Shown piece by piece: positions 10,798-17,314 of a stretch of 24,659 bases of DNA (the stretch's first letter is position 1; each line of letters opens with the position of its first letter). The DNA is from a virus: positions 1-24,659 of IMG/VR virus record IMGVR_UViG_3300048919_000254; one strand, given 5' to 3'. Position numbers and translations under genes: made by a program. A model generated the notes under the pieces. That model saw only the letters and a list, made by a program, of their open reading frames with translations. It had not been told where the DNA came from and made no database searches.

Positions 10798-11289
10798 ATG
10801 GACCAACCCCCAAACCGTAAAGCCTTTGGCGACATGCTGGCCTTTTCCGAAGGCACAAGCACACATCCCTTAACCCGTATGAATGGCTATGACGTCATTG
10901 TGACAGGGCTGGGCGAAAAGCAGGGCGAAGTCTTTACCGACTTCAGCGATCACCCGTTTACACATCGCCGCGCAAAAGAGCTTAACAGCCATGGCCTGGC
11001 ATCCACTGCAGCGGGCCGTTATCAGCAGCTTTACCGCTACTGGCCTGCCTACAAAAAACAGCTGAACCTGCCTGATTTTAGTCCTGCCTCACAAGAGCGC
11101 TTACTCGATCAGCTGCTGAAAGAGCAGGGTGCCTATGCGGACGTACTGGCCGGACGTATCCGCACGGCAATTGGTAAAACTAACGATATCTGGGCCTCAC
11201 TGACAGGATCGCCGTATGGTCAGAAAACGCATGTCATTGAGACGCTACTCAATGCCTACCAGAAAGCCGGAGGTGTAATTACCGACTAA
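10798..11289 (+). CDS. Lambda R-type endolysin (lytic transglycosylase)
   Basis: A 163-residue endolysin that cleaves the glycan strands of peptidoglycan, producing 1,6-anhydro ends. It aligns by eye along its length with lambda R: NRKAFGDMLAFSEGT, NGYDVIV, FTDFSDHP, AAGRYQ, YKKQL.L.DFSPASQ, IRTAI.., NDIWASL and YGQ. The catalytic Glu of the SEGT motif is residue 18. A short insertion (GLGEKQGE) precedes FTDFSDHP. There is no N-terminal signal or signal-anchor helix, so the enzyme should be cytoplasmic and depend on a pore-forming holin such as LydA. P1 itself uses an unrelated T4-type lysozyme with a signal-arrest-release helix at this map position, so this is a replacement. No Rz/Rz1 spanin pair is found next to it. 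It overlaps the convergent gene at its stop codon. Confidence 0.92.
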   Translation: MDQPPNRKAFGDMLAFSEGTSTHPLTRMNGYDVIVTGLGEKQGEVFTDFSDHPFTHRRAKELNSHGLASTAAGRYQQLYRYWPAYKKQLNLPDFSPASQERLLDQLLKEQGAYADVLAGRIRTAIGKTNDIWASLTGSPYGQKTHVIETLLNAYQKAGGVITD

Positions 11290-12179
11290 CAGCCGCGCCA
11301 GCCTTCAGGGATCGCATAGTCCACGTTTGAGTAGTCGCCGCTTAACGAGTCAACATAGCGGCGGCTTTTTGGGCTTCGATCACCAGTGGACTTAGTTTTA
11401 AAACTGGACTTTAGCAACTGATACGCTTCATGCAGTATTCCGCCTTTGCGCTGAAATTCTTCTGCGCGCCGTTCGTTCTGTGCAGCTGACGATGCGGCTG
11501 CCAATTGCTTCTGTGTATTCTGGTAAAAACCAAACTTTTTAGCAGGTGCTGACGTCTCAGGCTTGTCTGTAGTCATTTCCAGCGTGTCAGAATTTGATTG
11601 TTCCCCATTTAGTATTTTTCTTTTACTGGAGTGATCTCTTACTTCTTGTTGGTCACTTTGACCAGGGGGGGGCTGTTCATTTTGACTAGGGGTGGCGTGG
11701 AGAAAATCGTTTTTAAAGAATACTTTAGCAACAATTTTCCTTACAATAGTTTGACGTCCTGAAGGCTCCAGATTGGCCTCTTTCAGTGCATCCAGACTTG
11801 CACGAACAAACGACAGCGCTTTGCTGGTGAATGTGTATTTACTGGGCTTGCTGACGCTATGATTTTTAACGTCTCGCTGTTCTTCATAGCTGAGGATACC
11901 CAGCTTGACGGCTAAGCGATAAGCGCGCTGAACGGTAGAGATACTGCACCCTGCATCTTCAGCCAGATTTCTGAGTGACTTAACGATGATGAAGTCAGAC
12001 GTTGAACCAGCCAGGTTGCAGGCAAATTTTAAAACGCGTGTGAGTGATTTTGGTAGTGGGGAAAGTTCAATTATATGAGTGAGATTGAAGCCTGAAATTC
12101 GGATAGATCTGTGTTCGTTATTTGAGCGATGTGCGGGAAATGTGTTGCCGGGATCGGCGCTATTAGATACTATAGGCAC
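11286..12179 (-). CDS. Winged-helix protein, probable plasmid replication initiator
   Basis: A 297-residue basic protein. Residues about 42-125 form a winged-helix DNA-binding region (LPKSLTRVLKFACNLAG.., SLRNLAEDAGCSISTVQRAY, LAVKLGILSYEEQ, KYTFTSKAL). The plan of helix-turn-helix, LG(I/L)..Y, then (T)FTS recalls the N-terminal half of IncFII-type RepA initiators, but I cannot confirm the family. The C-terminal half is Ser/Lys/Gln-rich and low in predicted order. The start is GTG with AGGA 9 bp upstream. The context supports a replication role: a leader ORF ends at the ribosome site and a probable antisense RNA lies across the leader. An eight-G run (11665-11672, C8 in the mRNA) sits mid-gene. 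A transcription regulator is the main alternative. The stop overlaps the endolysin stop. Confidence 0.55.
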   Translation of the reverse strand: MPIVSNSADPGNTFPAHRSNNEHRSIRISGFNLTHIIELSPLPKSLTRVLKFACNLAGSTSDFIIVKSLRNLAEDAGCSISTVQRAYRLAVKLGILSYEEQRDVKNHSVSKPSKYTFTSKALSFVRASLDALKEANLEPSGRQTIVRKIVAKVFFKNDFLHATPSQNEQPPPGQSDQQEVRDHSSKRKILNGEQSNSDTLEMTTDKPETSAPAKKFGFYQNTQKQLAAASSAAQNERRAEEFQRKGGILHEAYQLLKSSFKTKSTGDRSPKSRRYVDSLSGDYSNVDYAIPEGWRGC

Positions 12180-12547: not shown

Positions 12548-13549
12548 TTATTTTGGGTTAATCCATAGCAGTGGTGTTGAGTCCACAGCTGGCGGGCGCG
12601 TTTGTGGTAATGTGTGCTGGTGGGCTGATCCGATTGGCAGTGTTGCCGTCGCATTTGTGCCGATTGATTCCAGCATTGCAGCGACAATCTGCGCATCTTC
12701 AGGCGTATCCATACGGCATAATGCCGCCTGCTGGGCTTTACTTAAAAACAGCGGCATGTTAGCCAGCGCATCCTTCATAATCCGGCGTCGCGCCTTTGCC
12801 ACGGTGCCTGCACTCTCGATCATCAGCTGCGCGCTGCGCAGACGTTCCTCCAGCTCCAGACGCTTGCCGTGCTCGATGTGGAGCGCCGATTCCAGCAGCG
12901 AAGAATCCGCAGATTCCAGCATGGCCGTCTGGCTACGCAGGGTTTCAAAGTGCTGGATAATGTCAGCCGCCTGATTTTCTGAATACCCCTTTTCCATTAG
13001 CCCCGCGTGAATGGCGTCGGCGCGTTCATTGGCCGATTCCAGCAGCAGTGCAGGGTGATCCTGGCTGATATAGTTCGGATTGGTCACGTAGTCGAAGCCG
13101 TGAAAGCTGGTCACTTTTGAAATGGCGTTATCGTCGCCGCCAGTCGCCCAAGACCAGCCACCAGCGCGGGAACGGTTCATGCCGTCAACGATGTTGCCAG
13201 GCTCGGTGTCCAGAATCTCCTGAACGTGAGTCACGATGCCGTTATCATCCACGCTGGCCTCCAGCGTACGGTTTGATGGTACGTTTTCCAGCGTGACCGG
13301 CTTACCGTCAATCATGACGACTGCAAATTCCGGCAGGTTTAGCCGTCCGGTCTTCGCGTAATAGGCGGCGCGACGTCCGTGGCCGTAATAGCCGAACATT
13401 TCTCCCAGCTGAATGCGCTCCTGAGTTTCGGGGCTGGCGAACGTTTCGCGCACCGATCGCAGCAGGTAATTGCGGTCATTCTGTGGAGTAAAGCGGCGGA
13501 TTTTATCAATCAGGGAAAAACGATCCGTTACCGTGCGGAGTGCTTCCAT
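12548..13549 (-). CDS. pro: Prohead maturation protease Pro-like
   Basis: A 333-residue protein at the position of P1 pro. It resembles T4 gp21-type prohead serine proteases, which digest scaffold and trim head proteins (in P1 also DarA) during maturation. The N-terminal protease region (about 20-165) has a candidate triad in the expected H-S-D order: His57 (YYGHGRR), Ser133 (AGGWSW) and Asp153 (FHGFDYV). Triad residues are my inference from spacing. Residues about 170-275 are a long helical/coiled region (ESANERADAIHAGL.., HIEHGKRLELEERLRSAQ), as in proteases that carry a scaffold-like tail, followed by a Thr/Pro-rich end. Start ATG with AGAGGAAG close upstream. A terminator follows. In P1, the portal gene lies directly next to pro; here about 2 kb separates them. 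Confidence 0.8.
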   Translation of the reverse strand: MEALRTVTDRFSLIDKIRRFTPQNDRNYLLRSVRETFASPETQERIQLGEMFGYYGHGRRAAYYAKTGRLNLPEFAVVMIDGKPVTLENVPSNRTLEASVDDNGIVTHVQEILDTEPGNIVDGMNRSRAGGWSWATGGDDNAISKVTSFHGFDYVTNPNYISQDHPALLLESANERADAIHAGLMEKGYSENQAADIIQHFETLRSQTAMLESADSSLLESALHIEHGKRLELEERLRSAQLMIESAGTVAKARRRIMKDALANMPLFLSKAQQAALCRMDTPEDAQIVAAMLESIGTNATATLPIGSAHQHTLPQTRPPAVDSTPLLWINPK

Positions 13550-13707
13550 AACTTCCTCTTAATTACTATGGGATGCCCCGTAAAGCGGCGGCAGTGCTGG
13601 CGGTTGCCTGCACGAAAGGATGGTAGAAAGGTTGTAATTTATGGGGTTAGTGATTCTTTAATAATGGCTGGATCTATTGACCAGTGGATAATTTCACATA
13701 AGACATA

Positions 13708-13735
13708 TTGAATTTATCAGCACGGTGGCTATAGT
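13708..13735 (+). promoter_or_regulatory. Promoter of the C4-like RNA / Tad2-like operon
   Basis: TTGAAT (13708-13713), 16-bp spacer, TATAGT (13730-13735). The predicted start is near 13742, just before the C4-like RNA. This is the best sigma70 match in the accessory island. Confidence 0.65.
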
Positions 13736-13741
13736 GTGCGC

Positions 13742-13927
13742 GCCGCTGAAGAGATCCAGCGGCCAGGCTTGGAACCCTGAAAAAGCATGAGAACTGGCAC
13801 ATTGTGCCTTCGGCGCTACCACGTCCGGATTACTCCGGGCGTATCTATGGTGGCGTTGGTGGGGCTACCTTCGGGTAGGCCGGTTTTCTTGTGCACCGGT
13901 AGTTCCAACCCTGTCAACGTCACCACC
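13742..13927 (+). ncRNA. c4: C4-type antisense RNA element
   Basis: The region resembles the C4 antisense RNA family known from P1, P7, P4-like and lambdoid prophages. Landmarks in order: CCAGGCTTGGAACCCTG (13764-13780), GCGCTACCAC..TCCGG, ATGGTGGCG, hairpin CTACC-TTCG-GGTAG (13865-13878), hairpin CCGGT..ACCGG (13880-13899), AGTTCCAACCCTG (13901-13913) and a final GTCACCACC. TTGGAAC can pair with GTTCCAA within the element, and a second TTGGAAC (13934-13940) lies downstream in the leader of the next gene. In P1, C4 is processed from the same transcript as its target and blocks translation of icd/ant. Here the gene downstream is the 85-residue Tad2-like protein. Family recognition is from memory. 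Confidence 0.72.
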
Positions 13928-13928
13928 C

Positions 13929-13973
13929 GGAGATTGGAACCTCCTGTAGTGACGCTTCTTTTCGCACAAGGAG
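13929..13973 (+). promoter_or_regulatory. Alternative hairpins over the Tad2-like ribosome site
   Basis: CTCCT (13941-13945) can pair with the Shine-Dalgarno AGGAG (13969-13973) and hide it, or its CTCC can pair with GGAG (13929-13932) and leave the site free. The two pairings exclude each other. The segment lies between the C4-like RNA and the start codon, where C4 targets usually lie. Confidence 0.45.
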
Positions 13974-13979
13974 CATTTC

Positions 13980-14237
13980 ATGCCTGACATCCCCGACACG
14001 CCACCCCCGGCGACACTACTGTTTGAGCGTGCTATGACCGCTATCAGCCAGACTGAAAGCGTCATCTGCCGTCGTGCCAAATGGGGTAATACACCCGTTC
14101 ACGTTTTTACTCAGAATGACGCTGACAGCCAGAAGACATTTATCGTCATGGGTGAAACGGGCGTGCTATTTTTCTATGATCCTACGCCTGAAGATATTCT
14201 ATCGTCAGACTGGCAGGTCATTTCGCTGCTACACTGA
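13980..14237 (+). CDS. Tad2-like (DUF2829) candidate anti-Thoeris protein
   Basis: An 85-residue protein with a strong ribosome site (AAGGAG, 6 bp spacing). The pattern fits the DUF2829/Tad2 family: F15-xx-A18-M-xx-I22, then R31-R-xx-W35, a central beta hairpin (KTFIVMGETGVLFFY), and a closing signature Y66-x-P-T-P-x-D72-I-L-xx-D77-W78-x-V. Tad2 proteins are small phage sponges that bind the cyclic ADP-ribose signal of Thoeris and so block the defence. Family members normally begin almost at the F..A motif; here a Pro-rich stretch of about 12 residues precedes it. It lies directly downstream of the C4-like RNA, so it may be controlled by it. Membership is by motif only; ligand-binding residues were not mapped, so anti-Thoeris activity is inference. 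Confidence 0.62.
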   Translation: MPDIPDTPPPATLLFERAMTAISQTESVICRRAKWGNTPVHVFTQNDADSQKTFIVMGETGVLFFYDPTPEDILSSDWQVISLLH

Positions 14238-14331
14238 ATCGGCAATTTGTCATAGTGTCGCAAATTAGAGCTGATTCAGGTTTCAGCGGTTAATTCAGTT
14301 TAAATAACTCCGCTTGCCAGATCGTCTCTTT

Positions 14332-14461: not shown

Positions 14462-14941
14462 ATGTTAAAAGCAAAGAAATACTACGTGTCTTTTCATTAT
14501 GAAAGCGGCACGCTGCTGCACAGGGAAGGCTGTAACTTACTCCCGAAATCGCCTGAAAGCCGGACTTTTATCGGCACCCTCTATACGTCGCAGCAGGCAA
14601 TGACAGTAGCGGTGGTACATCATCGTAATACTGAACACTGCCCGGTATGTCTCAAGAAACAGAACCCCGAAGAGGCTGATGCCCGTAAAGAGCAGTTCGC
14701 AAGCCTCAGCCAGAAACGGCGCACCGTAAATACAAAGAGACCTGTGTCTAAAGCAAAACCGGAGGTAGTGATAGCGACACAGAAATGCCAGTCCGATGGG
14801 GGGGCAAAAGTTATGCCAGCAGCAGCCGTAATGAAGAGCGCAATGGCTCAGCCGCAGCACGGCCCGCAGCAGGTTGTGAGAATTAAAAAAGGTGTTGAAG
14901 CTGTTGCTGTGCAGCACTTTGTTTACAGTTGGCCTGATTAG
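14462..14941 (+). CDS. Cys/His-containing hypothetical protein
   Basis: A 159-residue protein that I cannot name. The N-terminal 65 residues look like a compact zinc-binding fold: YYVSFHYESG, H20-R-E-G-C24, GTLYTSQQAMTVA, then C60-P-V-C63. The His/Cys spacing would give one metal site. From residue 66 onward the chain is Lys/Arg/Gln/Ala-rich and likely disordered (RKEQFASLSQKRRTVNTKRPVSK), which suits nucleic-acid contact. The ribosome site is good (TTAAGGA). It has its own -10 box upstream and its own terminator downstream, so it is a stand-alone unit. A seven-G run (14798-14804) falls in the second half. A regulator or host-takeover protein is possible; nothing fixes the function. Confidence 0.7.
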   Translation: MLKAKKYYVSFHYESGTLLHREGCNLLPKSPESRTFIGTLYTSQQAMTVAVVHHRNTEHCPVCLKKQNPEEADARKEQFASLSQKRRTVNTKRPVSKAKPEVVIATQKCQSDGGAKVMPAAAVMKSAMAQPQHGPQQVVRIKKGVEAVAVQHFVYSWPD

Positions 14942-15616: not shown

Positions 15617-17314
15617 TCAGCTGCCGGGTGTCGTCACGTAACGCGCAAATGCCACCAGCTCTTCATGCGTCCAGCTGGCCGGATCGGAGCCGTCAGGCGC
15701 GGATTCATTCATCATTCCGCTGCCGCCTTCATCCTCCTGCGCATCCGCTTTCTTCCTGCTCTTCTCAAATTCCGCCAGCATCTTGTCGAGCGTGCCGCCG
15801 TCCATTTTCAGCTGATCGCTGAACAGGTAGCGCATGAACGTGTCATTTTCCGCCAGCTTGTTGTTGGCCTGTAGCGCGTCCATGACCTGCACCATAAGGG
15901 TAATGAAGTTGGCGCGGGCGTCCATTTCGCGGCTTTCTTCTTCCTGAATGGCGGTGTTCATGGAGTTAAACTGCACGACATAGGGCCGATCGTTAACCGG
16001 GTACACCTTGCCGTATTTGAACGCCAGGTGAATATCGATCAGTCGGTAAATCATTTCCTGCGCACTCTGTCGCAGCCACTGCGCCCGGAGTGCCGCCTGA
16101 ATGGCCGTCTGAATCCAGCCGCCTTCACCCAGTCCGCCAGCCATCTGATCGGCCCAGCCCAGCATAGTTGAGTCTATACCGAGCGCGGCGCACAGCTGGC
16201 GCAGGTGAAACATCACGTCCTCAATGCCGGTAATGTCGGCGGGTATCGACTGCGTATCAATCGTAATACCGTTTTTACCATCACCCATCACCGGGATCAC
16301 ATGGTTCATCACGGTTGGCATGGTGTTACCGTTCACGGCTTTTTTCTGAAGCGCTTCGCCATGGCGCTTAAGCGTCTGCGATACGGTGCGGGTATAGTTC
16401 GCGCCTACAACCGGATCGAGTGAGTTGGTAGTCAGGGCAATCAGGCGGTCAATTTTTGCGGCATTATAGCGCGTTGCCTTCAGCGCATTCAGCGCCCCCA
16501 CAAGATTCAGGAAGGGTTCATAGGCATGCGCCAGGAAGCTGGTGCCATAGTTCTGCGTCTCCGCAACCTCCTTATCTTCTTCCTCCGACAGCAGAGAGTA
16601 ACCGCGATTCCCGGACGTCACAGGCTGAACGTTGCGCGTGGGCGTCCAGTACGGATTTTTCATCGGGACCAGTGACCACGGCGTAGACAGTGTGCGGGTA
16701 TGGGTATCAGGTGCCAGCACGTAATCACCGCCAAAACCCACCAGCTGATCGCCTTTATAAAACTCTTGAATGAAGTAGGGCAGCGAGTAATAGCTATTTT
16801 CCAGACTGGTGATCCCCTTGCCGGTACGGGCATAGGGGCGGACATAGGAGACGCCGAAAATCGCCATGGTCATAGCCAGCGACGGCAGATGCCGGTTAAT
16901 CATCGCGCCGAGATCGTCCTGCAATTCTTTAGCCCGCGCCGTGCCTTCTGCGTCAGACGGATCAACCGGCACGATAGAGAACGCCAGACCGGTTTTTTTG
17001 TCCGGCGCGAGTGCGTGGCCAATGTGGATATTCAGTGCGGCTGAGCACGTCGGGCTGTTAGCCATTTCCTCCAGAATCGCATAGCGCTGCAGCCGGTCCA
17101 GTGGCAGCTCCGCGCCCAGGTAAAGACTGTCGCCGGCAGAGGTCATTTCCCCCGCCTTCCCCTCGTTGTATGCCATTGCCGCCAGCCCGGAGCGAGAGAC
17201 AACCACGTTTTGCCCGTTAGTCCAGGCGAGGCTTTGCGGTGCATCTGCTGCAGCGCCCCGGAATGCCTGCCTCAGTGCGCCTAAAACAGACAATGCCTTT
17301 TTTTTAGTAGCCAA
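15617..17314 (-). CDS. prt: Portal protein Prt-like
   Basis: A 565-residue portal, the dodecameric vertex ring through which DNA enters and leaves the head. The identification comes from overall character and synteny next to pro and darB as in P1. The clip/stem/wing pattern is consistent: LPLDRLQRYAILEEM..SPTCSAALNIH near 75-100, a central domain (HAYEPFLNLVGALNALKATRYNAAKIDRLIALT), then GIEDVMFHLRQLCAALGIDSTMLGWADQM, RAQWLRQSAQEMIYRLIDIH and QEEESREMDARANFI typical of large portal proteins. The C-terminal tail is acidic and Gly/Ser-rich (ADAQEDEGGSGMM). The start is TTG at 17314, chosen for AGGG 9 bp upstream and because the frame begins with the expected Lys-rich N-terminus. It is divergent from darB. 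Confidence 0.78.
   Translation of the reverse strand: MATKKKALSVLGALRQAFRGAAADAPQSLAWTNGQNVVVSRSGLAAMAYNEGKAGEMTSAGDSLYLGAELPLDRLQRYAILEEMANSPTCSAALNIHIGHALAPDKKTGLAFSIVPVDPSDAEGTARAKELQDDLGAMINRHLPSLAMTMAIFGVSYVRPYARTGKGITSLENSYYSLPYFIQEFYKGDQLVGFGGDYVLAPDTHTRTLSTPWSLVPMKNPYWTPTRNVQPVTSGNRGYSLLSEEEDKEVAETQNYGTSFLAHAYEPFLNLVGALNALKATRYNAAKIDRLIALTTNSLDPVVGANYTRTVSQTLKRHGEALQKKAVNGNTMPTVMNHVIPVMGDGKNGITIDTQSIPADITGIEDVMFHLRQLCAALGIDSTMLGWADQMAGGLGEGGWIQTAIQAALRAQWLRQSAQEMIYRLIDIHLAFKYGKVYPVNDRPYVVQFNSMNTAIQEEESREMDARANFITLMVQVMDALQANNKLAENDTFMRYLFSDQLKMDGGTLDKMLAEFEKSRKKADAQEDEGGSGMMNESAPDGSDPASWTHEELVAFARYVTTPGS

Follow-up and report, generated by a model that had tools for sequence, protein, structure and literature searches.

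Operons under the antisense RNA C4 are classic instruments of lysis/lysogeny control, in which C4 - an RNA that acts in trans in P1 - normally silences a prophage antirepressor. Tad2, a sponge against host immunity, has been described only recently; its known structures bind nucleotides, and we are not aware of C4 control over the Tad2 genes SPO1 gp34.65, HgmTad2/AcrIIA7, ModTad2 or SptTad2. In the immI operon of P1 (C4-icd-ant1/ant2), a promoter, the a1/b1 target pair, C4 and the a2/b2 target pair precede the first gene, and a RepL-type gene lies nearby. RNase P cuts C4 from the leader, and C4 represses Ant synthesis (PMC8546580, PMC5320573). A C4 motif whose a' and b' loops vary is also seen in the Acinetobacter Group 1 C4-like sRNAs, for which their authors propose phage or host targets (PMC5320573).

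The locus analysed here lies in a window of 24,659 bases (the whole stretch of DNA studied, an IMG/VR record) and shares with immI C4, the a2/b2 target pair and the nearby RepL-type gene, along with a predicted promoter and an a1/b1-like element. In contrast to P1, neither icd nor ant was found, and the sole gene directly behind C4, sited between pro and portal, encodes a Tad2-like protein of 85 residues. While C4 RNA, C4 operons and Tad2 each are known kinds, their combination did not turn up: consistent with the preliminary description, which knew of no example, we found no report, in the literature searched (subscription papers were mostly outside its reach), of C4 followed solely by a Tad2-fold gene and none of a similar domain in C4 antirepressor operons (the D6 genome paper probably lying outside that reach). 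An identical copy of the 85-aa protein is encoded by pEuc3 of Pantoea eucalypti (NZ_CP045723.1, 94,967 bp, circular). The parts of the window locus and its neighbours are these:

11286..12179, minus strand: neighbouring gene for a RepL-like lytic replication protein, a member of the P1 and D6 immI neighbourhood (D6 synteny)
12548..13549, minus strand: neighbouring pro (head processing) gene (phrog_1801, E 1.9e-140; pEuc3 annotation)
13672..13696, plus strand: operator-like dyad with 14/17 specified positions of TGNAATNNNCCASTGGNNNATTNCA, a motif that recurs upstream of other pEuc3 genes
13708..13735, plus strand: sigma-70-type promoter TTGAAT-16-TATAGT (consensus scan; hexamers invariant in 8 aligned sequences)
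13729..13783, plus strand: c4-a1b1 upstream target element, the first of two sets of C4 target sites (RF03163, 39.0 bits)
13843..13930, plus strand: C4 antisense RNA (RF01695, 84.2 bits, gathering score 45, model 1-87 complete)
13884..13895, plus strand: C4 b' loop UUUUCUUGUGCA (predicted duplex with b2, -13.8 kcal/mol)
13900..13911, plus strand: C4 a' segment UAGUUCCAACCC (predicted duplex with a2, -10.2 kcal/mol)
13934..13941, plus strand: a2 target TTGGAACC within the Tad2-like gene's leader, complementary to a' and nearly invariant in relatives
13964..13973, plus strand: b2 target GCACAAGGAG, complementary to b' and including the Shine-Dalgarno of the Tad2-like gene
13980..14237, plus strand: Tad2-like protein, 85 aa (PF11195; Tad2 fold by AlphaFold2 model; purifying selection)
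15617..17314, minus strand: neighbouring gene for the portal protein (phrog_1497, E 1.2e-209)

Homologues of the 85-aa protein occur on five plasmids besides pEuc3. Because they and pEuc3 carry a P1-type gene set (ddrA, a darB-like SNF2 protein, pro, portal, a late promoter activator), the window replicon and the homologue plasmids are P1/D6-type phage-plasmids; pEuc3 encodes in addition a C1-like repressor (77283-78398, E 2.4e-12) and a RepL-like protein with 35% identity to P1 RepL (E 2e-19, match at 52070-52555). The C4 locus of the window is close to repL, as in P1-type immI operons, and the window order (lyz, repL, pro, C4-Tad2-like gene, portal, darB) is the neighbourhood of phage D6 - where repL, pro, portal, darB and a lysozyme gene likewise accompany C4-icd-ant - with a local rearrangement. 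Between the Tad2-like gene and portal, some relatives only share with the window a 159-aa protein (14462-14941, plus strand) with no family assigned. As a separate observation, the phage-plasmid region of the Acinetobacter venetianus plasmid unnamed3 (CP060164.1, our L005) matches pPSP-26e of Pantoea sp. PSNIH1 in Tad2-like protein and gene layout, a likeness that speaks either for a very wide host range or else for a mixed assembly.

In the preliminary description, the RNA had been taken for a C4-type element directly upstream of the 85-residue gene, and both parts hold: the Rfam match to C4 came at E 1.6e-15 in a search of the whole window, and C4 ends at 13930, the reading frame starting at 13980. 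A single C4 was present in each of the 13 (of 13) records holding the Tad2-like gene, five complete plasmids among them. The a1b1 element was matched at E 2.8e-8 in a laxer search of 701 bases (13600-14300), its score staying below the gathering score of 46.7. As to the promoter, previously called good, its hexamers are conserved as listed above and position 13742 agrees with the predicted transcription start, but the consensus scan found 4 sites against 4.5 expected and is, alone, not above chance. D6-type loci with a fused Ant (e.g. L290, L295) have the order isrK, C4, icd, Ant of the isrK-C4 antirepressor operons (Gifsy-1 type); the window differs from the latter in having no icd or ant and only a weak match to the isrK model (23 bits, cut-off 50).

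One candidate gene was discarded. The frame at 13787-13987 (plus strand) scores 26.4 bits against Pfam 'Ash' PF10554 (cut-off 26), yet we rejected it: it runs across C4, and in most relatives stop codons interrupt it. Translated C4 RNA seems to be behind some of the 'ash family protein' annotations (CP060164.1).

Just upstream of the C4 promoter stands a motif made of a 17-base half-site and a 25-base dyad, the right half of which is invariant in 8 aligned sequences. Dyads with at least 14/17 positions of TGNAATNNNCCASTGGNNNATTNCA occur at 7 sites in pEuc3 as opposed to 0.15 expected from shuffles, the pattern being derived from the same sites; copies lie near 1402, 3641, 22607, 54129 and 74189, before umuD, a parM-like gene, the capsid gene and other genes. 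This repeated dyad may be an operator of a phage regulator. The scan of pEuc3 listed none before the C1-like gene, and a P1-type C1 operator, looked for at the promoter of the C4 locus, was not found.

To relate C4 to its downstream gene we compared cognate with permuted pairing between C4 loops and leaders, using a sample of at least about 255 C4 sites, most of which came from a DNA pattern blind to the downstream sequence. Over 109 distinct loops, cognate b' pairing averaged -11.83 kcal/mol, some 33 SD beyond the permuted mean of -5.79 (SD 0.185), and cognate a' pairing averaged -10.06 kcal/mol versus -7.85 permuted (SD 0.171); none of 2000 permutations reached the cognate value for a' or b'. 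This excess of cognate over permuted pairing indicates that C4 loops track the leader of the gene behind C4, and the Tad2-like gene, with a median pairing rank of 0.048 for its cluster, is no exception. In L003 and L007, loop and target have changed together (b' UCUCCUCGUACG, b2 target GTACGAGGAG); in the divergent members L090 and L096 the b' pairing is weak. C4 control of the Tad2-like gene, as predicted from these duplexes, is thus well supported.

The Tad2 signature of the 85-aa protein, likewise part of the preliminary description, was recovered by the Pfam Tad2-like (DUF2829) model PF11195 with 29.6 bits (E 9.9e-7), only just above the cut-off of 25. dN/dS values of 0.06-0.49 between relatives place the frame 13980-14237 under purifying selection. 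In the structural comparison with Tad2 that had been proposed, an AlphaFold2 model (mean pLDDT 81.6) retrieved Tad2 on all Foldseek ranks from 1 to 20, and 9 of 10 Tad2/AcrIIA7 entries superimposed in VIA-align over 67-69 residues with Z 9.0-10.3 and an rmsd of about 2 Å; the remaining entry, 8wje, aligned at 8.3 Å, and the next unrelated row had Z 3.8. On the strength of these Foldseek and VIA-align results, membership in the Tad2 fold is solid on the predicted model. Sequence similarity is far lower: identity to solved Tad2 proteins, the SPO1, Hgm, Mod and Spt members named above being the reference, is 15-19%; the core motifs differ, as the subfamily has CRRxxWG and Y-PT/S in place of the canonical R-GWNGKG and W-PS; and the clade-invariant residues (A18, C30, R31, R32, W35, G36, H41, G61, L63, P68, D77, W78) include a His (H41). 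In the short protein, the cyclic-dinucleotide insertion is not evident. Searching the PDB with the single sequence gave chance matches only and with a profile reached Tad2 entries at E 0.37-0.56 only, PADLOC and NCBIfam had no useful match for the protein, and a search of it against genome contigs had none. So of the earlier proposal that C4 controls an anti-Thoeris protein, the control part is borne out by the predicted loop-leader pairing, but anti-Thoeris identity is not established, the Pfam domain being broader than Tad2 proper and GWNGKG lacking.

Two further Tad2-like domains are found in pEuc3, at the C-termini of larger proteins, and most of its relatives have three such domains, too:

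L268 19016-19534 (= pEuc3 66516-67034): Tad2-like protein, 172 aa
L268 23578-24162 (= pEuc3 71078-71662): Tad2-like protein, 194 aa

Elsewhere, the first genes behind C4 fall into at least about 47 sequence clusters, from which we conclude that the C4 RNA is a transferable module. Matches of the cluster representatives are to Icd-like, Rha, Bro-N, P22_AR_N, ORF6N, DUF6124 and Tad2-like proteins; among the matches listed, Tad2-like ones are confined to one first-gene cluster, to which 14 of 119 viral and 0 of 118 genome stretches listed by the pattern scan belong (not to be read as frequencies). In up to 2.5 kb downstream of at least about 255 listed C4 sites, defined by a rigid C4 pattern, no Tad2-like gene stood behind C4 outside P1/D6-type phage-plasmids. 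A search with the family alignment gave 29 loci, and those read have C4-type sequence directly upstream of a standalone gene. The exception, L290, is a D6-type locus with the domain fused to Ant.

It is this exception that leads to a link overlooked in the preliminary description: among C4-linked relatives outside the clade, the closest, from phage D6, have a similar domain either within Ant or encoded immediately behind it, in operons of the C4-icd-ant type. Behind the C4 of L290 come a P1-like icd and then the gene of a Rha-type antirepressor of 313 aa, which in its C-terminal part is similar to the Tad2-like protein of the window. These Icd-like and Ant genes are also annotated in phage D6 (NC_050154), and the L290/D6 Ant tail has matches in 123 plasmid records. 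A second D6-type locus has the order a1b1, C4, icd, ant (235 aa) and a separate gene of 65-66 aa, the start of which overlaps the ant stop. In D6 itself the latter is:

L376 5790-5987 (= phage D6 19789-19986): H7U15_gp110, a 65-aa 'hypothetical protein', Tad2-like subfamily by profile

Next to this gp110 lie ant (gp109), icd (gp108), repL, pro and portal; darB flanks it from the opposite side. So in D6, one operon has gp110 as its last gene, and the Ant of the other has a similar domain at its end. The contig IMGVR_UViG_2579778606_000002 (L290; L294, L331) also carries two C4-icd-ant operons, with the Tad2-like domain fused to Ant in one and encoded by a separate gene in the other.

Whether window and D6 forms belong together was judged by profiles. 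The two groups align in hhalign with a probability of 94.7 and E 5.8e-8; against a profile built from the D6 forms, the window protein scored E 5e-6, and the other two Tad2-like proteins of pEuc3 scored 0.15 or were absent from the hits listed. With the window-family profile, E values were 6e-6 to about 1 for D6 forms and 3e-5 for the 172-aa paralogue. The C-terminal domain of D6 Ant did not reach the Pfam Tad2-like model at E under 1, its tail modelled with low confidence matched no Tad2, and a PDB profile search with the Ant-tail group found none either. Hence the link between the groups is one of profile similarity, by which the window protein and the D6 forms are likely homologous. As for the missing genes, tblastn and profile searches found neither icd nor ant in pEuc3, and ant was not found in nine clade records. 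D6 keeps icd and ant and has the domain last in the operon or fused, whereas in the window the domain comes first. Since D6 has C4-icd-ant with a similar domain inside or after Ant, the window arrangement looks to us like an immunity operon in reduced form, and less like an RNA and an anti-defence gene brought together by chance: judging from gene content, it probably is an immI operon of the C4-icd-ant-Tad2 kind minus icd and ant, although the direction of change (loss of icd and ant) is our inference.

Our preferred explanation, which as a whole we hold to be probable, sees here a reduced immI-type operon with a C4-controlled Tad2-like gene that has an early nucleotide-binding role. From one promoter would be transcribed a leader with the first target pair, C4 and the second target pair, and then the single 85-aa gene. 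By analogy with P1, RNase P would cut C4 from this transcript, and b' would pair with b2 and a' with a2, around the ribosome-binding site, so that translation of the Tad2-like protein is blocked and transcription ended early. A resident prophage would in this way keep the Tad2-like gene off - in trans, the copy of an incoming relative included - and expression would occur upon entry into a naive host or upon induction; processing, repression and timing at the window locus are all modelled on P1. The protein itself would most likely be an early small-molecule binder of the Tad2 type that sequesters a nucleotide immune signal. Given the rest of the explanation, we see the chances of such ligand binding and counter-defence, as read from the model, as roughly balanced; we favour the sponge because the timing under C4 would suit it and the fold points the same way.

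A different view of the D6 loci, unlikely in our opinion, would make the Tad2-like protein an accessory of the antirepressor system, whose standalone form acts on the phage repressor or another immunity component. That D6-type phages fuse the domain to Ant or let the 65-aa gene overlap ant fits with this, and so do the C1-like repressor of pEuc3 and the other C4 operons that start with Icd-like, Rha, Bro-N, P22_AR_N and ORF6N proteins. However, Ant homologues without the tail (230-239 aa) are common, and the domain is therefore probably dispensable for antirepression; moreover, it is nucleotides that known Tad2 structures bind, and we know of no Tad2-fold regulator of repressors. Combining both roles, the domain might be the ligand sensor of an antirepressor switch, which binds the nucleotide signal of a host defence and alters antirepression, and fused, overlapping and standalone forms would then be variants of one C4-controlled sensor. 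We deem this rather improbable.

Similarly doubtful to our minds is that the protein replaces Icd as a growth inhibitor, with C4 serving as antisense RNA in a toxin-antitoxin pair of type I. Its gene does occupy the place of icd directly after C4, and the RefSeq product name of several homologues, 'MW1434 family type I TA system toxin', would then be apt. Against this, NCBIfam listed no toxin model for the 85-aa protein up to E 1, the predicted fold is that of Tad2 and not of a small membrane peptide, and the profile search of pEuc3 showed no icd-like sequence. Finally, that C4, transferable as it is and acting in trans as in P1, is kept only for immunity against related incoming phages with the gene behind it as incidental cargo seems very improbable, as the cognate loop-target pairing is retained for the Tad2-like gene, matching changes included, and this gene is under purifying selection and accompanies C4 throughout the clade.

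Returning to the reduced immI-type operon with its C4-controlled Tad2-like gene, it seems that a single operon combines a lysis/lysogeny switch with a possible counter-defence protein. One clade has a lone Tad2-fold gene behind C4, another a similar domain in or beside the antirepressor, which suggests that the RNA switch into lysis also times a nucleotide-binding protein in some phages. Hypothetical proteins such as D6 gp110 thereby gain candidate functions, and the locus provides a small, testable case in which counter-defence genes may be silent in the lysogen yet available on infection.
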